Positions 2-24,213 of a stretch of DNA of 36,170 nucleotides are shown here, piece after piece (position 1 is the first letter of the stretch; every line of letters starts with the position of its first letter). Source of the DNA: Phycisphaerales bacterium. GTDB taxonomy: Bacteria; Planctomycetota; Phycisphaerae; Phycisphaerales; SM1A02. The stretch is from assembly GCA_007693845.1 (NCBI GenBank), contig RECV01000199.1, positions 1-36,170 on the forward strand, in the 5' to 3' direction. The notes beneath the pieces are model-generated. The model did not search any database. It saw only the letters and a list, made by a program, of their open reading frames with translations, and had not been told where the DNA came from. The position numbers and the translations under genes were made by a program.

Positions 2-274
2 CTAGTGCAGCATCCCGGGGTGAGCGTCGTCGGCTCGATTCTCGGCAGTGTGGATCAATACCATTCCCACGTGGTCGTGGACCGCGACGATGTGGCCGAC
101 GCCACCGCGCTGCTCCGTGATCCGCCGACCATGAACGATGATCTCGGGGCATGGGACTGCCCGTCGTGCGGCGAGTCCAACGATGCGGGGTTTGAAATCT
201 GCTGGCAGTGCGAGCGCGTTCACCCCGAACACCCGGATGCAGATGCGGAAGGACACTCCGATGACAGAAATTGA
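2..274 (+). CDS. Partial protein with C-terminal RanBP2-type zinc finger (5' end outside window)
   Basis: The reading frame is open to the left edge of the window, so the true start probably lies upstream; the first in-window start codon is a GTG at 5. The visible N-terminal part (GSILGSVDQYHSHVVVDRDDVADATALL) resembles the end of the small DUF2007 'putative signal transducing' domain, but this is a weak impression. Behind it lies WDCPSCGESNDAGFEICWQC. It fits the RanBP2-type zinc finger pattern W-x-C-x2-C-x3-N-x6-C-x2-C exactly, so a zinc-binding knuckle is likely. The tail is acidic and His-rich. The stop overlaps the start of the hydrolase gene (ATG at 261), which suggests co-transcription. 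Function unknown. Confidence 0.6.
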   Translation, partial: LVQHPGVSVVGSILGSVDQYHSHVVVDRDDVADATALLRDPPTMNDDLGAWDCPSCGESNDAGFEICWQCERVHPEHPDADAEGHSDDRN

Positions 275-1184
275 ATCAAACGCCCGACCCCGTTCCCGAA
301 TCGGTCCGTGGGTGCGTATCCTGATCATTCTCACGATCATCATCGGCGCGGGCTGGCTCACCGGTTGCATGGAGCGCATGTTTTACATTCCGACGCGTGA
401 ATCGACACCGGCGTCGATGGGACCACCCGGCACGGAATCGGTCTGGTTTACGTCCGAAGACGGGACGCGCCTGCACGGCTGGTTCATGCCCGCCAGGAAT
501 CGCCAGGACTCCGACCAACCCGCGCCAACGATTCTGCATGTGCACGGCAATGCCGGCAGCGTGCGCTCACACGCATGGTTCACCGAACACCTGCCACCGG
601 CCGGGTTCAACGTGTTCCTGTTCGATTTTCGCGGCTACGGCGAAAGCGAAGGCCGCCCCACCCGTCGCCGGCCGCTCATCGCCGACACCCGTGCGGCGCT
701 CGACGCCATCCTGGAACGGGATGATGTCGATCCCGACCGCATCGGGATGTACGCGCAGTCACTGGGCGCGGCGATCGGCGTGAATGTAATGGCGGAACGG
801 GATGAACTGCGAGCGGCGGTGCTTGAATCACCTTTCGCCAGTTGGCGCGAGATTGCCGCCGACGCCATTGGCGGCGGGCCGATCGCCCGGACGCTCGCGG
901 CGGTACTCATCCCCGACCACAGCCGACCGGATGAAGCGATGAAGCGCATCGACCGGCCGATCCTGATCGTGCACGGCAAGGATGACCGGATCGTACCGAT
1001 TCACCACGGCCAAGCGATGAGCCGGGCTGGCGGCGAAAATGTCGAGCTACACGAGTTTGATGCGGGTAATCACAACGTGCTGCGACAGACGCATCCGGAA
1101 GTGGATGATTTGACAATCGACTTCCTCCGGAAGCATTTGGGTGACAACGGATCGCGTGCGGAGCCGAGTGATGATGGTGGCTGA
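261..1184 (+). CDS. Alpha/beta hydrolase, probable lipoprotein (BEM46/ABHD13-like)
   Basis: A 307-aa serine hydrolase of the alpha/beta fold. Residues 16-32 are a hydrophobic N-terminal segment ending in LTGC (Cys36), which fits a lipobox, so the protein is probably anchored to a membrane with its domain outside the cytoplasm. Visible motifs are HGNAGS (96-101, oxyanion region), FDFRGYGES (122-129), the nucleophile elbow AQSLGAA (Ser167), HGKDDRIVP (Asp241/242) and GNH (His271): a complete catalytic triad. The start at 261 was chosen because AGGA-rich sequence lies just upstream (249-254) and it overlaps the preceding stop, as is usual in this cluster; a longer frame from 138 would run through the previous gene. 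Its 3' end overlaps the rnpA start. Substrate unknown. Confidence 0.82.
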   Translation: MTEIESNARPRSRIGPWVRILIILTIIIGAGWLTGCMERMFYIPTRESTPASMGPPGTESVWFTSEDGTRLHGWFMPARNRQDSDQPAPTILHVHGNAGSVRSHAWFTEHLPPAGFNVFLFDFRGYGESEGRPTRRRPLIADTRAALDAILERDDVDPDRIGMYAQSLGAAIGVNVMAERDELRAAVLESPFASWREIAADAIGGGPIARTLAAVLIPDHSRPDEAMKRIDRPILIVHGKDDRIVPIHHGQAMSRAGGENVELHEFDAGNHNVLRQTHPEVDDLTIDFLRKHLGDNGSRAEPSDDGG

Positions 1185-14503: not shown

Positions 14504-17500
14504 ATGAGCCGTCCGTCCGACTCCCACCACATCCGCGTCCGCGGCGCCCGCGAGCACAATCTGAAATCGCTCGATGTCGATCTCCCGCGCGATCAACTCG
14601 TCGTGATCACGGGCGTCTCGGGTTCGGGCAAGAGTTCGCTCGCCTTCGATACCATCTTCGCCGAGGGACAGCGGAAGTACATGGAGTCGCTCAGCGCGTA
14701 CGCGCGTCAGTTTCTCGATCAACTGCAGAAGCCCGATGTCGAGACCATTGAAGGCCTCCCCCCGACGATCGCGATTCAACAGCGCAGCGGCGGGCACAAC
14801 CCGCGCTCGACCGTCGCGACCACCACGGAGATCTATGACTACCTGCGCCTGCTCTTTGCCCGGTGCGGACAACCGACGTGTTGGCACGGAAGCGAGAGGC
14901 GCGAGGGGGTATGCGGGAAGCCCATCTCGGCTTCGAGCGCATCCCAGATCGTGGACACGCTGCTCAATGCGCCCGAAGGCACGCGGATGATGATCTGCGC
15001 GCCGGTCGTGCGCGGCAAGAAGGGCTACCACCGCGAAGTCATCGAGGGGCTGCAGAAGCAGGGCTTTGTCCGAGCGCGCGTGAACGGCGAGATCATCGAC
15101 ATCCGTGATGCGCTCAAGGAGGGCGGCGACAATCCGCTCAAGCTCGGCCGCTACGAAATGCACACCATCGAAGCGGTGGTGGATCGCATCGTCGTCAAGT
15201 CCGAAGCGCGGCAGCGCATCGCGGATTCCGTGGAAGCGGCGCTCAAACTTGCGGAAGGAACGTTGATCGCCCTCATCCAAACCGACGCCGGGACTGCCGA
15301 TCGCAGTGAGATAGGCCCGGATCGTTCCGGCGAGAAAACGCCCGCATCTTCCTCGCCTCGCTCGTCAGATGCGGCTTCGGGGCAGAATTGGATAGAGCAC
15401 CGGTTCAGTGAGAAGTTCGCCTGTCCGGATCATCCGGAGTGCTCGCTCGATGAATTGGAACCGCGATTGTTTTCGTTCAACTCGCCTTACGGCGCGTGCC
15501 CGAACTGCGATGGGCTTGGTCTGGTCAGCGAGTTCGATGAAGGCCTCATCGTGCCGGACACCTCGCTCAGTCTCGCGGAAGGCGCGATCGAGCCGTGGAA
15601 GAAAAACGGCAAGCGGATGAACATGTACTACGGTCGCGTCCTGCGCCGCTTCTGCGACGCGATGAATGTCGATCGGCACCAACCCTTCAGCAAGATGCGC
15701 AAAACCGCGAAGCGCGTGCTTCTGGAAGGCACGAACGACCGCGATGAGTCACGCTACGGCTTGAGCTTCGAGGGCGTCATCCCGAATCTGCACCGGCGGT
15801 ACGACAATTCCGAGAGCGACTTCGTGCGCGAGCGGCTGCGCCACTACATGACCAATGCCCCGTGCCCGACTTGCGAGAAGAAACGTCTGCGCATTGAAGC
15901 GCTGCACGTGCTGCTGAGCACCCGGCCGCAGAACGGTGACCGTGCGGCGTTTCGCGCATCAGACGGCTACTCGATCGCCGACATCACCAGCATGACGATC
16001 GATCAGGCGATCGGCTTCTTCGATTCGCTTGAACTATCCGAAGAACAGCAGCAGATCGCGGCCCCGATTCTGCGCGAGATCAACGCCCGACTCGGGTTCC
16101 TCGCATCGGTCGGGTTGAACTACCTCACGCTCAATCGCACCGCCTCCACGCTCTCCGGCGGGGAAGCGCAGCGCATCCGCCTCGCCACCCAGGTCGGCTC
16201 CGGGCTCGTCGGCACGTGTTACGTGCTGGATGAACCGACGATCGGCCTGCACCAGCGCGACAACGACCGGCTCATCAATACGCTCCGCAGTCTAACTGAC
16301 ATCGGTAACACGGTCCTCGTCGTCGAACACGATGAAGACATGATCCGTGCGGCAGACCACATTCTCGATATCGGCCCCGGTCCCGGAAAATGGGGCGGCA
16401 CCGTCGTCGCGCAGGGATCGCCCGAGGAAGTCATGGCCCATCCGCAATCGCTCACGGGTGACTATCTCGCCGGTCGGCGCTCCATCAAAGTGCCCGAAGA
16501 ACGACGCAAGCTGACCGAAGATCGCGCGATCGTTGTCAAGGGCGCGCGGGCCAACAACCTGCAATCGATTGATGTGACCTTTCCGCTCGGCGGGCTCATT
16601 TGCGTGACGGGCGTATCGGGTTCAGGCAAGTCCACGCTGGTCAATGAAATTCTGCTCAAAGCCGCGAAGAAGCAAGTCGTCGGTTCACGCATCACGCCCG
16701 GCGTGCATACGCGCGCGAACGGGCTCGGCCAGATTGATCGGGTGATAGAAGTCGACCAGTCCCCCATCGGTCGCACGCCGCGCTCCAACCCCGCAACGTA
16801 CACCGGCATCTTCGATGAGATCCGAAAGCTCTTCACCCACACGAAGGAAGCGAAAATCCGCGCGTACCAGCCCGGCCGATTCAGCTTCAACGTCAAGGGC
16901 GGCCGGTGCGAAGCGTGTCAGGGCCAGGGCGTGAAGAAGATCGAAATGCACTTCCTGCCCGATGTGTTCGTCACGTGTGAAGTGTGCAGGGGCGCGCGAT
17001 ACAACCGGGAAACACTCGAAGTCAAGTTCCGCGGCAAGACGGTCGCGGATGTGCTCGCCATGACCGTCGAGGAAGCGGTTGAATTCTTTGAAGCGCACCC
17101 GCGCGTGCTGCGTATGGCGCAATGTCTGCACGATGTCGGACTGGATTACCTTCAGCTCGGCCAGCCGTCGACGACGCTTTCCGGTGGCGAAGCGCAGCGG
17201 ATCAAACTCGCCAGCGAACTCGGCAATCAGGCGAGCGGGCATACGCTCTACGTGCTCGATGAACCGACCACGGGCCTGCACTTCGCGGATGTGGAGAAAC
17301 TGCTGAGCGTGCTCAACCGTCTGGCGGATCAGCGGCACACGCTCATCGTCATCGAGCACAATCTCGATGTGATCAAATGTGCCGACTGGATCGTCGACCT
17401 CGGGCCGGAGGGCGGCGATCGGGGCGGACAGGTGATCGCGGCCGGGACGCCCGAGAAAATCATGCGGGAAAAGGCGAGTCACACCGCGCGGTATCTCAAG

Positions 17501-17563
17501 CCGCTACTGGAACGATCCGATGCGCGGGCTTCCTCCCGACGTGTCGCCGCCGCAGGCGCGTAA
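14504..17563 (+). CDS. uvrA: UvrABC excinuclease subunit A
   Basis: 1019 aa; the damage-recognition ATPase of nucleotide excision repair. Two ABC modules are intact: Walker A GVSGSGKSS (37-45) and later GVSGSGKSTLVNE; signatures LSGGEAQRIRLA and LSGGEAQRIKLA; Walker B VLDEPTIGLH and VLDEPTTGLH. The C-terminal zinc module is standard (CEACQGQG...CEVCRGARY). The insertion-domain zinc finger differs: FACPDHPECSLDELEPRLF has C-x5-C where E. coli has C-x2-C, with GACPNCDGLG as the second half. The protein is about 80 aa longer than E. coli UvrA. Part of this is an insert at about residues 259-299, just before the first zinc finger, that carries a palindromic repeat translated as ASSSPRSSDAASG. The C-terminus is an Ala/Arg-rich tail. 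Confidence 0.98.
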   Translation: MSRPSDSHHIRVRGAREHNLKSLDVDLPRDQLVVITGVSGSGKSSLAFDTIFAEGQRKYMESLSAYARQFLDQLQKPDVETIEGLPPTIAIQQRSGGHNPRSTVATTTEIYDYLRLLFARCGQPTCWHGSERREGVCGKPISASSASQIVDTLLNAPEGTRMMICAPVVRGKKGYHREVIEGLQKQGFVRARVNGEIIDIRDALKEGGDNPLKLGRYEMHTIEAVVDRIVVKSEARQRIADSVEAALKLAEGTLIALIQTDAGTADRSEIGPDRSGEKTPASSSPRSSDAASGQNWIEHRFSEKFACPDHPECSLDELEPRLFSFNSPYGACPNCDGLGLVSEFDEGLIVPDTSLSLAEGAIEPWKKNGKRMNMYYGRVLRRFCDAMNVDRHQPFSKMRKTAKRVLLEGTNDRDESRYGLSFEGVIPNLHRRYDNSESDFVRERLRHYMTNAPCPTCEKKRLRIEALHVLLSTRPQNGDRAAFRASDGYSIADITSMTIDQAIGFFDSLELSEEQQQIAAPILREINARLGFLASVGLNYLTLNRTASTLSGGEAQRIRLATQVGSGLVGTCYVLDEPTIGLHQRDNDRLINTLRSLTDIGNTVLVVEHDEDMIRAADHILDIGPGPGKWGGTVVAQGSPEEVMAHPQSLTGDYLAGRRSIKVPEERRKLTEDRAIVVKGARANNLQSIDVTFPLGGLICVTGVSGSGKSTLVNEILLKAAKKQVVGSRITPGVHTRANGLGQIDRVIEVDQSPIGRTPRSNPATYTGIFDEIRKLFTHTKEAKIRAYQPGRFSFNVKGGRCEACQGQGVKKIEMHFLPDVFVTCEVCRGARYNRETLEVKFRGKTVADVLAMTVEEAVEFFEAHPRVLRMAQCLHDVGLDYLQLGQPSTTLSGGEAQRIKLASELGNQASGHTLYVLDEPTTGLHFADVEKLLSVLNRLADQRHTLIVIEHNLDVIKCADWIVDLGPEGGDRGGQVIAAGTPEKIMREKASHTARYLKPLLERSDARASSRRVAAAGA
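15342..15374 (+). repeat. Palindromic in-frame repeat, copy 1 (in uvrA)
   Basis: Arm CCGCATCT (15342-15349), 17-nt loop TCCTCGCCTCGCTCGTC, arm AGATGCGG (15367-15374): a perfect 8-bp inverted repeat. CTTCGGGGC follows, shared in part with the other copies (CTTCG). The 33-nt core equals 11 codons and adds ASSSPRSSDAASG-type sequence to UvrA about residues 280-293, where other UvrA proteins have a variable linker. Confidence 0.75.
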
Positions 17564-17680: not shown

Positions 17681-18316
17681 ATGACACAACCGCCTTCAGA
17701 TCAGGTGGATTTGTTTGAAACGGAACCGGCAACGGAGACGATCCCGCTCCAACGCATCGTGCCGACGCTCGACTCCGTTCTGAGTTGGCTGGTGATCGTG
17801 GTCCTCTTCGGTTCGTGCGGGCTGATCGCGTGGCTCGCTTACCTGGCCGGATCAGACTGGGGCAAGGTAGCCGGAATGGGATTCGGGCTCGCCGCGCTTC
17901 TCGCTCTCATGATGTTCGCGGTAGTGCGCATCTTGTGGACGCCGCAAGCTCGTCGATTCCCGGCTCAGCCGATCCTGAGCGATGCGATGGCCAGGTCCGG
18001 CCACTCGCTTGCCTTCGGCGCGCTCTGCCGTTTCAACGGCTGCATCACCGCGGTGGTTGACTCCCAACATCTGCATCTCGTGCCGGTGGCCGTTTTCCGG
18101 TGGTTCGGGGCGAAGCGGATGAGTCTGCCGTGGACCGCGATCCGCGATGTCCGCCCGTTTCTGATTCCGTCGTACGCCCGCGCGGAAGTTGCGGGGACCG
18201 CCATAATCGCACCGGCGTGGTGTCTTGAGCTGGCCTCAACCGCGGTGGAACTGACTCCCGGATCGACACCCCCTGAGCAAGTATTCCTCCCGATCGTGAA
18301 AGAAACGCATCGCTGA
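17681..18316 (+). CDS. Two-segment membrane protein of unknown function
   Basis: 211 aa. Two membrane segments (about 33-55 and 62-85) follow a short acidic cytoplasmic N-terminus. The C-terminal 120 residues form a soluble beta-rich domain (CITAVVDSQHLHLVPVAVF, then MSLPWTAIRDVRPF, then TAIIAPAWCLELAS). The strand pattern is reminiscent of bacterial PH-like domains, but this is an impression only. GGAG lies 8 nt before the ATG. It lies 117 nt behind uvrA and 177 nt before the next gene. I cannot assign a function. Confidence 0.72.
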   Translation: MTQPPSDQVDLFETEPATETIPLQRIVPTLDSVLSWLVIVVLFGSCGLIAWLAYLAGSDWGKVAGMGFGLAALLALMMFAVVRILWTPQARRFPAQPILSDAMARSGHSLAFGALCRFNGCITAVVDSQHLHLVPVAVFRWFGAKRMSLPWTAIRDVRPFLIPSYARAEVAGTAIIAPAWCLELASTAVELTPGSTPPEQVFLPIVKETHR

Positions 18317-18493
18317 GACGTCCTGAAAGACGCATTGAAGGACTTGCATCCTGCGCAGAGCTGAAGACAATAACACATTGACAACCGACAATAGACCGCC
18401 GAACGGGCGTGGGCTCCTTGTGGGGGCCGGCAAGACCGGGGGCCCGTCGGCTGGCCAGGCAGGTTCTTTCTGCGGAAAGGAGAGGTGCCTCAT

Positions 18494-19900
18494 ATGAAGC
18501 GCTACCGGAACTGGCGTCACGGCGCGGAGCAGCTCGCCGATGCGCTTGCGTATCTGGGCGAGCGCGATGAGAAACCGATCATCCTCGGTCTGGTCAACGG
18601 CGGGGTGGCCATCGCGGACATGATTGCCCGTCGATTGAACGCCCCACTGGATGTTCTGTTGATCGAACGTCTGCACGCGCCGGGTTCTCCGGAACACGTC
18701 GTCGGCGCGGTGGATGAGCACGGGCGCATCTCCATGATAAAGTCCAGCGCACGCTGGCATCATCTGACGAGCAAGCAGATGATCGAACCGGCGCGGGAGG
18801 TCTACCGCGAATTGCAGCGGCGGCGCGGGCCGATACGCGCGATCCTGCCCGAACTCGATCTGGAAGATCGAACGGTCATCATTGTCGGTCAGGGCATTCT
18901 GACCGGGGCGAAGATGCTTGGCGCCATCTCCGCAGTTCGTGATCGTGGGGCAAACAAAATCGTTGCGGCAGCCCCCGGCGGTCACGGAAAATCAATGTGG
19001 CAGTTGCATGATGTCGCGGATGAAGTGGTGGTTCCGCACCAGCCACCCAACGTGACCTCGGTCCGCGAGTTCTACGATGAATTTACCGAGATGACTGACG
19101 GACCGGTGGTCGCATTGATTGAACGGTGGCTGGAATCCCGGCAGGAGACGCGCGAGGGCATGTCCACCCTGCTGCTGAAGTTTCAGAGCACCGCCGGCCA
19201 CATGTTGCACTGCGAAGTCGATCTGCCGCCGGGTGTGAATCGTGGCAGTGGGCCGTACCCCGCCGTCGCCTTCGCCCACGGCTTCGAGAGCGACGCCAAG
19301 AGCCAGCGATCGGTTCCGATCAGCAAGCGACTGGCGAAGCGCGGCATCATCGGTGTTCGTTTCGACTTTACCGGCCACGGCCGATCCGAAGGGACCACAG
19401 AGGACGCGACCGACCAGCAAATGCTGGAGGACGTTCACACGATCTTCCAGAACATCACGCAACTGTACGAGGTCAATCCCCAACGGCTGGGGCTGAACGG
19501 CTCGGGAACCGGCGGCATGATCGCGCTCTACTACACCGCAAATCAGCCGCTGATCAAGGCGTTGGTCATCCGCGGTCCGGTCTGCGGCCGGGAGATCGAC
19601 GCCGCTCGTAAGGTCACCGCCCCGACACTTCTGATTCACGCGGAGCGTGATACCGCGCTGGAAGATCCGATCAGCGTGTTGGATCAGGAGTTGCGCGCAA
19701 CACACGAACTGCTGCGGGTGCCAAACTCGAACCGGATGTTCGATGATCCCGTCAGCCGGGAATTGATGATCAGCGCGACGGTTGACTGGTTCGTCGACCA
19801 TCTGCGCACGCCGACCACGATGCCGGAGCGCCCGGCCGAACCCTCCGAGGCCCCCTCCCGTGCCACGCAACCCGATTCCCCATCCACCCCTGCTCAGTGA
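18494..19900 (+). CDS. Phosphoribosyltransferase-like / alpha-beta hydrolase-like fusion, probable double pseudoenzyme
   Basis: 468 aa. Residues 1-220 follow the type I phosphoribosyltransferase plan (IILGLVNGGVAIADMIARRL, APLDVLLIERLHAPGSPEHVVGAV). The PRPP-binding loop reads VIIVGQGILTGA (128-139), with Gly-Gln (132-133) where active enzymes have two acidic residues (DD/DE). Residues 225-437 follow the dienelactone-hydrolase-like fold (AFAHGFESDAKS, FDFTGHGRSEG). The nucleophile elbow is GSGTGG (336-341), with Gly338 at the catalytic Ser position. The Asp is kept (ERD, 386), but the catalytic His position is Arg414 (NSNRMFDDP). A Pro-rich tail closes the protein. AAAGGAGAGG precedes the ATG at 18494, which favours it over an in-frame GTG at 18485. 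Possibly a sensor or scaffold; activity is doubtful. Confidence 0.82.
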   Translation: MKRYRNWRHGAEQLADALAYLGERDEKPIILGLVNGGVAIADMIARRLNAPLDVLLIERLHAPGSPEHVVGAVDEHGRISMIKSSARWHHLTSKQMIEPAREVYRELQRRRGPIRAILPELDLEDRTVIIVGQGILTGAKMLGAISAVRDRGANKIVAAAPGGHGKSMWQLHDVADEVVVPHQPPNVTSVREFYDEFTEMTDGPVVALIERWLESRQETREGMSTLLLKFQSTAGHMLHCEVDLPPGVNRGSGPYPAVAFAHGFESDAKSQRSVPISKRLAKRGIIGVRFDFTGHGRSEGTTEDATDQQMLEDVHTIFQNITQLYEVNPQRLGLNGSGTGGMIALYYTANQPLIKALVIRGPVCGREIDAARKVTAPTLLIHAERDTALEDPISVLDQELRATHELLRVPNSNRMFDDPVSRELMISATVDWFVDHLRTPTTMPERPAEPSEAPSRATQPDSPSTPAQ

Positions 19901-19927: not shown

Positions 19928-20467
19928 TCATCCGCCGAACGTCGCGGCGAAGATTTCTTCGTGGATGTGCAGCGCCTTGTCATCGAAAAGCACAAAGCGG
20001 ATCAACTCAACCGACGACATGCGCGGCAGGGCCTCAAACACGGCATCCGCGGCGACGAGCGCGGCCTGCGCTATCGGATAACCGAATGCACCCGTCGAGA
20101 TCGCGGGAAACGCAATCGACCGGATATCCTTCTGGTTCGCCAAGCGGAGCGCACTTCGATAACAGTTCGTCAGCAGTTCCGGTTCGGGCTGATCCTGTCC
20201 GTACACCGGTCCAAGACAGTGAATCACGAAACGGTTGGGTAGATCGTGCCCACCGGTGATCACCGCCTCCCCCGGCTTGATCGGCGCGAGCGGTTCGCAT
20301 TCCTCGGCCAGACCGGGACCCGCGGCTGCATGAATGGCCCCCGCCACCCCACCGCCGGACATGAGCTCCGCGTTGGCAGCGTTCACGATCGCATCAAGGT
20401 CCCGCTGATTCGTGATGTCACCCTTGGTGCATTCCACACGGACGCCGTGTGCTTCATACTGCCACAT
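19928..20467 (-). CDS. Macro-domain protein, probable ADP-ribose / O-acetyl-ADP-ribose hydrolase
   Basis: 179 aa, a complete single macro domain of the YmdB/MacroD type. ADP-ribose-binding landmarks: KGDITNQRDLDAIVNAANAELMSGGGVAGAIHAAAG (15-50), VIHCLGPVYG (81-90), and the phosphate loop FPAISTGAFGYP (120-131). The Asn of VNAANA and the GGG loop expected for deacetylase activity are present. A strong ribosome binding site (AAGGAGATC) lies 7 nt before the ATG. It converges on the fusion gene (28-nt gap) and follows ispD by 67 nt on the same strand. It probably removes ADP-ribose modifications or O-acetyl-ADP-ribose in the cytoplasm. Confidence 0.9.
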   Translation of the reverse strand: MWQYEAHGVRVECTKGDITNQRDLDAIVNAANAELMSGGGVAGAIHAAAGPGLAEECEPLAPIKPGEAVITGGHDLPNRFVIHCLGPVYGQDQPEPELLTNCYRSALRLANQKDIRSIAFPAISTGAFGYPIAQAALVAADAVFEALPRMSSVELIRFVLFDDKALHIHEEIFAATFGG

Positions 20468-21491: not shown

Positions 21492-23672
21492 TCAGTTACA
21501 GGCCCCCCAATTCTCGAGGAGGATGAGCAGATCAAACACATCAACCATGCCATCGGTCATGAGGTCCGCCTCACAACCATCGCAACGGCCCCACTGAGAG
21601 AGGAGCATGAGCAGATCAAAGACATTCACATCACCCGAGTCTGTCAGGTCGCCGACACAGACTTTCTTCGGGTGGATGCCGAAGAGTTCAAACGCCTTGG
21701 CCGATGCAATCTCGCCGATCTTCTGCCCCTGGAACCGTGCGGGGAAGTCGTCCACGTAGGGGTGGATTCCGCCGTAGATACGTGATCGGGCCGACTGATC
21801 AGAGCAGTCGAAGTACCGCGCCCACTGCAGAGTGACGTCCTGGCTCGGGCCGTATTCAAAGTCCAGAAAATCTCCCTGCTGAATGTGGTATTCACCCAGA
21901 CCGCCCGGGAAGTACGGGCTTCCGGTGAGTTCCGACAGCGCGACCGCCGCGGCTCGGCTGAACGTCGTGTGCCCGGAGGTGTAACCGGGGAACGGTGGGG
22001 TGATGAACGTGGCGAGTTGATAGGTGCTCCAACGCTTCGCCAGGATCCACTGCACGCCGCTGTAGGACGCGTCATACTGGTGGTACTGCGGGTCTGTCCA
22101 GATGTTCTGATATGAGATCGGCTCATAGGCCAGTTCATTGTCCGAGGGTGACCCCGGCCATGCCATAACCGCGATCTCGCCGATGAACTGCTCGACGTCA
22201 TACTGGTTCTCACCGTTCTCATCCGGAATCGCAAACCCGAATTCATCGACCACCATCTCCGCGAGATGCGCGTGCTTTCCGCCCGGCGCTGCGGTCTCCT
22301 CGGTGATCAGTTCGATGATGCCCGGGATCAGAGGCAACCCGTGCGGGTGGTAGGAAGGCAGGTTCGGATCGGATGATTGTCCGCGTTCAGCCATGTAGCG
22401 AATGGCGTACACCGGCCGCACGTAGTCGTAGAAACCCTTGACACCCCAGCAGGCGACGGCCGCATCGTGCGTCGCGCCGTTGAGCATCAGGTACATCTTC
22501 ACATCCCACTCGAGGCGATCCACGATCGGGCCTTCGCCGCCGATGCGATGCTCAAAGATCGGGCTGTCCGCGACAAGTTCGTTGGCGATCTCGTTCCAGT
22601 GACCAGGCGGCGTGGAGCTTTGCGGCCCGTCGGCCCAGAACTCTGCGACTATTCGACCATAGTCACCGTAATTGATCACGTTCGGCGGGTACGGTTCGCC
22701 TGTGACCGGGTTCTTGCCGTAACCCTGACCGTCATTCGAACCAAGCGGATTCTTGCCGAACACCGCCGGGGAGATATCGATCATGATGCCGAGGTCAGGG
22801 TCAAGTTGACTGGACGTCACGATGACGTCAGCAAACGTGTCGATGTATTCCTGCTGGCGCTCCGTGTCGAGCATCGGAGGTGCACCGGGGTCGAGGTAAA
22901 GACCCGGCGCATCCAGATGTTCCTCGCGTAATGCAAACGGTGTGACGTACCCCCAATGCGGACCGATCGCTACCGGCACATTGCCGGCAATGATGTTGCC
23001 CGCCTGATCGACCTGGGTCTCCAACCAGGTGGACGCCCAGCGATTCGGATCGGTGACGAAATCAAGCGGCAGGCCCAAGTTGGCAACGGCGATCGGTTCG
23101 TTGACCGGCTGGTACGGATCGAGTGTGAACGGATCGAGCGGGGCAAAATTGTTCAACTCGTTGGATCCGTCTTCCCATCCCGTTTCGATGATGATCTGCG
23201 CGATTCGGTTTCCAATCGCGGCCGGCGAGTCACCCTCAGTCGAAGTGAACGTCGCGTCGTAGCCCATCATCGAGAACTGGTCATCCAGCATAGGCTGAAT
23301 GACCTTGGCCCCTGCGGCCTGCTCAAATCGGTACTTCAGGATGCGGTAGGCCGCATAGCTGATCGCCTCCTCACGGGCCGCCTTGACATCACGCGGGGCA
23401 GGATACTTCTCGGTGTAGAACACGCCCAGCGCCGTGTCGTCGTACACCGCCCACGCGTCGTACATCGCTGCGGACGTGTGGTAGAGATTTCTCGCGTGAA
23501 CCGGCGGCCGAGCGCGATCATTCCGGATCGACTCCAAGGTCATTTCATTCCAGACTCTCGCGGCAGACCAATCCGACGAGCCGGCCGTTGCCTCTTGCAG
23601 CGACCATCCGATGGCTCCGACAGAGAGCACGCACGTCATCGCCATTACACATGTTTCCTTCTTGATCTTCAT
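21492..23672 (-). CDS. Secreted vanadium-dependent haloperoxidase-like protein with dockerin-type tail
   Basis: 726 aa. Signal peptide MKIKKETCVMAMTCVLSVGAIG, likely cut after EATA. The vanadate/PAP2 active-site motifs appear in order. KGFYDYVRP (about 411-420) fits K-x6-RP. GYTSGHTTF (about 560) is the PSGH motif with Thr for Pro. SRIYGGIHPYVDD (about 629) fits SR-x5-H-x3-D. It may oxidise halides with peroxide outside the cytoplasm, or act as an acid phosphatase. From about 675 two dockerin-like units follow (GDLTDSGDVNVFDLLMLLSQWG and ADLMTDGMVDVFDLLILLENWG) with acidic Ca2+-loop residues, a tail typical of exported proteins in this bacterial group. ATG at 23672 was chosen because GGAGG lies 9 nt upstream. 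Confidence 0.88.
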   Translation of the reverse strand: MKIKKETCVMAMTCVLSVGAIGWSLQEATAGSSDWSAARVWNEMTLESIRNDRARPPVHARNLYHTSAAMYDAWAVYDDTALGVFYTEKYPAPRDVKAAREEAISYAAYRILKYRFEQAAGAKVIQPMLDDQFSMMGYDATFTSTEGDSPAAIGNRIAQIIIETGWEDGSNELNNFAPLDPFTLDPYQPVNEPIAVANLGLPLDFVTDPNRWASTWLETQVDQAGNIIAGNVPVAIGPHWGYVTPFALREEHLDAPGLYLDPGAPPMLDTERQQEYIDTFADVIVTSSQLDPDLGIMIDISPAVFGKNPLGSNDGQGYGKNPVTGEPYPPNVINYGDYGRIVAEFWADGPQSSTPPGHWNEIANELVADSPIFEHRIGGEGPIVDRLEWDVKMYLMLNGATHDAAVACWGVKGFYDYVRPVYAIRYMAERGQSSDPNLPSYHPHGLPLIPGIIELITEETAAPGGKHAHLAEMVVDEFGFAIPDENGENQYDVEQFIGEIAVMAWPGSPSDNELAYEPISYQNIWTDPQYHQYDASYSGVQWILAKRWSTYQLATFITPPFPGYTSGHTTFSRAAAVALSELTGSPYFPGGLGEYHIQQGDFLDFEYGPSQDVTLQWARYFDCSDQSARSRIYGGIHPYVDDFPARFQGQKIGEIASAKAFELFGIHPKKVCVGDLTDSGDVNVFDLLMLLSQWGRCDGCEADLMTDGMVDVFDLLILLENWGACN

Positions 23673-24213
23673 TCCGTGTTCCTCCACGAGTCAGCCGTCC
23701 ATCAGGATGGCCGACAATTTCAAAGATGACCCGATCACAATTCGATCAAAGACCCTGCCAGCGAAGCCATCATGATCCGGCGTGGTCTGATCCCACATCG
23801 GGTCGATTATCAGTACCAGACATGGAGTTTGTGGCCGATCGGATCAATGTCAATCGAATCCTTCTCAATTCAAGACAGTTTCTTCAAAAAGTTGGGCCTC
23901 ATAAACAGGAATATTTTACTGTTATACTTCTACTTCTATGCATATTCTGATTCTATTCTATCTCCTCCTTTGGCCCTGAAAAGATTTTGATCCTGTATTG
24001 AAGAGGAATATTTTTATATATCGACCGGACGAGTTCTGTTGAACCTGCCAATCATCGCTTGAATATGTGCCGTGATGCGGTACGCTGTCCCTTTATCAGA
24101 CTGTGATCAAGTCCGAGGATGGTACTTGTTCATATCGGATTTGCACGATTGATCCTACTTCATCCAAGCGGTGGATCGCACACTACACTGAGTGCCAACG
24201 AGGTAACACCCCT
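23673..24213. other. AT-rich divergent intergenic region
   Basis: This 541-bp spacer between two divergent genes has no convincing coding frame. By eye count, 23881-24060 has about 36% GC, against 60% or more in most of the window. It holds runs such as ATATTTTTATATAT around 24008-24021, AGGAGGAGA read on the minus strand near 23965, and several possible promoter boxes. Promoters of both flanking genes should lie here; the composition could also mark foreign DNA or a nucleoid-protein binding site. Confidence 0.55.
23987..24016 (+). promoter_or_regulatory. Candidate sigma-70-like promoter
   Basis: TTGATC (23987-23992) and TATTTT (24011-24016) are separated by 18 nt and lie in the AT-rich block, about 200 nt upstream of the CMD-domain gene. 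Both boxes deviate from consensus, and other pairings in this AT-rich stretch are possible. Confidence 0.22.

Follow-up and report, generated by a model that had tools for sequence, protein, structure and literature searches.

What might a protein do if it joins a phosphoribosyltransferase (PRTase) to an alpha/beta hydrolase and has lost canonical catalytic residues from both? The question is raised by a gene at 18494-19900 (+) of the window, the 36,170-nucleotide stretch of Phycisphaerales bacterium contig RECV01000199.1 that was analyzed here. The gene is predicted to encode a double pseudoenzyme. This protein is probably cytosolic and non-catalytic, and would act by binding a ligand or a partner.

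The fusion gene and its two halves

The open reading frame encodes 468 amino acids, and its coordinates were confirmed as exact. The start codon is most likely the ATG at 18494. It is preceded by a Shine-Dalgarno-like AAAGGAG (18476-18482, +), which is identical in the sister genome G091. A GTG at 18485 would give a protein of 471 amino acids. It was rejected as too near the ribosome-binding-like GGAG (18479-18482), which is well spaced for the ATG only. Sigma-70-type promoters were also sought and none were found. Residues are numbered here from the methionine encoded at 18494 (M1).

The two domains, an N-terminal type I PRTase and a C-terminal alpha/beta hydrolase, lie in a single frame. Pfam identified PF00156 in the N-terminal half, whereas the C-terminal half matched PF12146 (Hydrolase_4) and related models of alpha/beta hydrolases. 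The pattern of PF00156 followed by an alpha/beta hydrolase is present in all 17 relatives of the window fusion. The PRTase half (residues 1-216; 18494-19141, +) has its best PDB match, in both sequence and fold, in TT1426 of Thermus thermophilus (1wd5; phmmer E 2.7e-31; Foldseek target TM 0.83). TT1426 is a stand-alone PRTase that lacks a hydrolase half and, unlike the window protein, keeps the motifs PRGG and VDDGVATGAS. The hydrolase half (residues 224-440; 19163-19813, +) was recognized by Pfam and by a profile-profile match. Its Foldseek matches are alpha/beta hydrolases, among them the dienelactone hydrolase of Anabaena variabilis (2o2g; 0.80) and Hydrolase_4 esterases such as TTL lipase. 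Unlike 2o2g and TTL lipase, it carries Gly where the nucleophile is expected and Arg in place of the catalytic His. Both halves were modeled as folded by AlphaFold2, one 1wd5-like and one 2o2g-like, with moderate confidence (pLDDT 78.8, pTM 0.56; the clade alignment served as input).

Residues at the two active sites

The active-site columns of 17 full-length clade members were tallied against those of 48 intact PRTases and 25 intact hydrolases. The PRTase tally was made without a Cupriavidus fusion (L148) and a long-branch row (L099). The hydrolase half of L148 fell below the search threshold and is thus outside the hydrolase set.

For the window protein, the preliminary description had read the nucleophile as Gly and the catalytic His as Arg, and both readings hold well beyond this one protein. 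The nucleophile elbow GSGTG (residues 336-340; 19499-19513, +) carries Gly338 at the nucleophile, and GSGTGG (residues 336-341) aligns with GASTGA of intact fusions. Ser338 is found in 25 of 25 intact hydrolases and in none of the 17 clade members, which have Gly (16) or Ala (1). The segment PNSNRMFDDP (residues 410-419; 19721-19750, +) aligns with PGATHLFEEP or GATHLFEEPG of intact fusions and places Arg414 at the catalytic His. This His is again present in 25/25 intact hydrolases and 0/17 clade members (Arg 16, Ala 1). A serine hydrolase would be expected to have both a Ser nucleophile and a catalytic His, and all 17 members lack the two. No conserved substitute nucleophile was found at the elbow. 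Ser337, which together with an acceptable His had been named as what would overturn the reading, is replaced by Ala in L037 and L043 and by Thr in L046, and position 414 is Arg or Ala. The third residue of the hydrolase site has been kept. Position 386 (Asp in the window; 19649-19651, +) is Asp in 15/17 and Glu in 2/17 by the position-by-position tally, and the catalytic acid of a serine hydrolase is thus present.

In the PRTase half, the former PPi loop GLVNGGVA (18587-18610, +) has Asn35 in place of an invariant Arg. A competent type I PRTase would have this Arg, as in PRGG. It is present in 48/48 intact PRTases and absent from 17/17 clade members (Asn 16, Thr 1), a further change that the preliminary description had not included. 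The former PRPP loop, VIIVGQGILTGAK (residues 128-140; 18875-18913, +), was placed by alignment to intact fusions and by the column tally. Residues 128-139, VIIVGQGILTGA, align with the PRPP loop VDDGIATGAT of intact PRTase-hydrolase fusions. In the window protein both acidic positions are replaced, by Gly132 and Gln133. The second acid, Asp133, is Asp in 48/48 intact PRTases and in 1/17 clade members, most of which have His, Gln, or Glu there. The first acid is retained as Asp in 9/17, and an Asp-Glu pair is retained in 3/17 (L040, L041, and L047). The earlier reading of Gly-Gln in the PRPP loop is therefore correct for the window protein but does not extend to the whole clade. When aligned with intact fusions from Rhodococcus, Rhizobium, Embleya, and Salipiger plasmids, the window protein reads GLVNGGV for GLPRGGV, ERL for RKL, and VGQGILTGAK for VDDGIATGAT.

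The tally over the 17 members thus indicates that the loss is uniform in the hydrolase half and graded in the PRTase half. Judging from the aligned residues, the window copy ranks among those in which the PRTase site is most completely lost. The broader claim that catalytic residues are lost in both domains stands for Arg35, the PRPP-loop acids, Ser, and His, but not for Asp386.

It could be asked if the fusion is still an enzyme, either through non-canonical residues or because the members with an Asp-Glu pair can still carry out PRTase chemistry. Asp386, the GHGRSEG segment, and the acidic pair in three members are what such an enzyme might keep. However, Ser337 and Thr339 vary, no member has His at position 414, all 17 have lost Arg35, and the PRPP loop of the window is Gly-Gln. 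An active enzyme is thus improbable. Some members may still have residual PRPP binding or chemistry, given the Asp-Glu pair in three of them and an Asp386 that is mostly kept.

A conserved clade and its intact relatives

The preliminary description had called for a search for other members with the same substitutions, and a clade of predicted pseudoenzymes was found. The window's family is represented by 181 genomes in 45 genera, and full or partial relatives are present in 23 and 15 of these, respectively. The relatives include the 17 full-length members, which are 47-94% identical to the window protein, and further partial ones. Some copies in the family are only contig-end or split pieces, and the C-terminal end is disturbed in G053. 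All sampled genomes of genera g1, g14, g16, and g18 carry the fusion. The fusion-bearing genomes are metagenome genomes of Phycisphaerales or Planctomycetota. Order- and class-level searches identified no clade members outside the family. The clade forms a single branch in both domain trees. Its losses are shared by descent, and the 17 members are thus not independent events.

The closest two full-length copies, those of the window and G091, encode proteins that are 94% identical. For this one pair, dN/dS is 0.076 (NG86) or 0.060 (YN00) and is about equal between the PRTase and hydrolase halves. Such values indicate that the gene is not decaying. The clade combines shared loss, a single branch in the trees, and purifying selection. 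That the gene is a decaying pseudogene, or that the pattern is an alignment artefact, would account for several catalytic residues being lost together, but is exceedingly improbable. The frames are open, conservation is strong over 15 genera, dN/dS is 0.06-0.08, and the motifs of the window protein align to intact fusions without gaps. Open frames, conservation, and dN/dS rule out the pseudogene.

A shift of conservation to positions that are specific to the clade is the most telling sign of selection. In the PRTase half, 24 positions are invariant in the clade and have a different consensus or none in intact proteins; the hydrolase half has 22 such positions. Those of the PRTase half cluster along the sequence in VDEHGRISMI (residues 73-82; 18710-18739, +), which is nearly invariant in the clade and variable in intact relatives. 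In the AlphaFold2 model, the strands at this hairpin are 65-74 and 79-81. In type I PRTases, the hood is a mobile catalytic hairpin. From the column tally and the model, we take VDEHGRISMI to lie at the position of this hood. Other clade-invariant residues are H90, R101, D150-R151-G152-A153, W169, and P181-H182. In the hydrolase half, R279, K282, R283, and R289 are clade-invariant within a basic segment, RLAKRGIIGVR (residues 279-289; 19328-19360, +). This half also retains GHGRSEG, an ordinary trait of Hydrolase_4 proteins. Some of its invariants, GHGRSEG among them, carry little weight as new positions and should not be over-read.

Intact counterparts of the fusion exist in other bacteria, as the preliminary description had stated, and include some from the same phylum. 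A phylum search gave only two further full-length matches, the planctomycete G862, which has an intact fusion, and G718, which has adjoining PRTase and hydrolase genes with intact PRTase loops. The active architecture is thus present in this phylum. The intact fusions of Rhodococcus opacus (WP_065493537), Embleya, and G862 have the same domain order and a similar length, and can be aligned throughout. They keep PRGG, RKL/RKV, DDG-ATGAT, GASTG, and the His of HLFEEP, all of which the clade loses. PRTase-hydrolase-erythromycin esterase proteins of Rhizobium and Salipiger plasmids share the first two domains of the window fusion. However, they keep the active-site residues and are longer, and the Rhizobium protein has a C-terminal erythromycin esterase domain. 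Rv0571c of Mycobacterium tuberculosis is presumably another PRTase-alpha/beta hydrolase fusion.

The fusion on pHG1 of Cupriavidus necator H16 (WP_011154146; L148 1501-2844) is different. Its PRTase loops are intact, unlike those of the clade, and in its hydrolase half the nucleophile is apparently Gly and the catalytic His apparently Arg (STGTAG, SGRGF), as in the clade. L148 is distant in sequence, and its two hydrolase changes appear to be a separate event.

In the PRTase tree, the branch of the clade is long and its sister group was not resolved. The hydrolase tree, which includes a generic outgroup, is saturated, and the stem of the clade is very long. Profile-profile comparison connects the hydrolase half to intact PRTase-linked hydrolases of the GASTGA/THLFEEPG type (E 7.6e-24), but PDB scores and the GHGRSEG trait point to Hydrolase_4, and the half may have come from either source.

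Two side observations concern intact genes. In genus g33 of the window's family (L051, L062, and L063), an intact hydrolase and an intact PRTase are encoded by adjoining genes. In Rhodococcus and Nostoc plasmids (L142 and L147), an intact fusion or gene pair adjoins a ribose-phosphate pyrophosphokinase gene. This neighbor suggests a PRPP-linked role for the active module.

The PRTase-hydrolase architecture is already known; the conserved clade, predicted to be doubly inactive, is a new form of it. Searches of open-access papers turned up no account of a double pseudoenzyme of this kind. It seems to be uncommon for two fused enzyme domains to lose activity and yet be maintained together.

Possible functions and the gene neighborhood

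At the level of sequence, the fusion is conserved, under selection, and stripped of canonical catalytic residues. From this we infer that it does not catalyze a reaction. The earlier suggestion that kept folds with lost sites point to selection for binding, sensing, or a scaffold is supported by the clade, by both folds, by purifying selection, and by the new invariant positions. The role itself can be proposed as follows. The ancestors would have been active PRTase and alpha/beta hydrolase enzymes. The old PRTase hood would have been frozen as the VDEHGRISMI hairpin. Together with H90, R101, the D150-A153 residues, W169, and P181-H182, it would most likely form a new pocket for a ligand or a new interface for a partner. 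A second docking surface could be provided by the hydrolase half through its four basic invariants. The fusion would then most likely be a small-molecule sensor or a scaffold subunit. The clade indicates which positions were abandoned and which were newly fixed, and a new binding surface can thus be tested by few point changes. Natural controls are available in the form of intact fusions and of stand-alone paralogues that are likewise intact, some of them in the same genomes.

The paralogues also allow another possibility, that the fusion is a regulatory or structural subunit of intact stand-alone PRTases and/or hydrolases in the same cell. The mammalian PRPP-synthetase-associated proteins provide an analogy. 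A stand-alone PRTase is present in 16 of the 23 fusion-bearing genomes, and those that were read have intact loops. At least seven fusion-bearing genomes have an intact GASTGA-type hydrolase as a stand-alone protein. However, the paralogue genes do not adjoin the fusion, and no PRTase paralogue was detected in the window genome (90% complete), G044 (95%), or G048 (93%). A partner-only role is thus unlikely, and the subunit explanation as a whole would seem unlikely as well.

A frequent neighbor of the fusion is uvrA (14504-17563, +), identified by its Pfam UvrA domains. Of 20 resolved loci, 18 have it upstream of the fusion and in the same orientation, usually at a distance of 0.1-1 kb. The link is missing at G054 and G073, and the gap is 2 kb in G050. 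Between uvrA and the fusion is a gene for a small membrane protein of 211 amino acids (17681-18316, +), which has no Pfam or NCBIfam match and is kept at this place in several loci. The fusion could therefore be a UvrA-linked accessory factor of DNA repair and not a metabolic sensor, all the more as uvrA remains upstream even where other neighbors have changed. However, a wider block (SPFH protein, ABC permease, and uvrA) is also conserved in many fusion-bearing genomes, and the link may thus be inherited gene order. In addition, family members that lack the fusion do possess uvrA, with neither the fusion nor the small membrane gene in the sequence examined after it. A quick search for LexA-like boxes near uvrA or the fusion gave nothing consistent. 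A role in DNA repair is thus quite unlikely. It is also unlikely, but possible, that the clade is a new family of receptors or adaptors. In such a family, binding of a nucleotide-like signal, nucleic acid, or protein partner would be shared by the two dead folds, and the protein would work with UvrA or with the adjacent membrane protein. The preferred reading remains a double pseudoenzyme that acts through ligand or partner binding.

Other genes were observed in the window. A Macro domain protein is encoded at 19928-20467 (-), convergent with the fusion gene. At 21492-23687 (-) is a gene whose product resembles vanadium haloperoxidases (DUF6851, weak VCPO_2nd) and has a dockerin-like C-terminus (GDLTDSGDVNVFDLLMLLSQWG). 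Another alpha/beta hydrolase is encoded at 138-1184 (+) and is distantly similar (28% identity) to the hydrolase half of the fusion.
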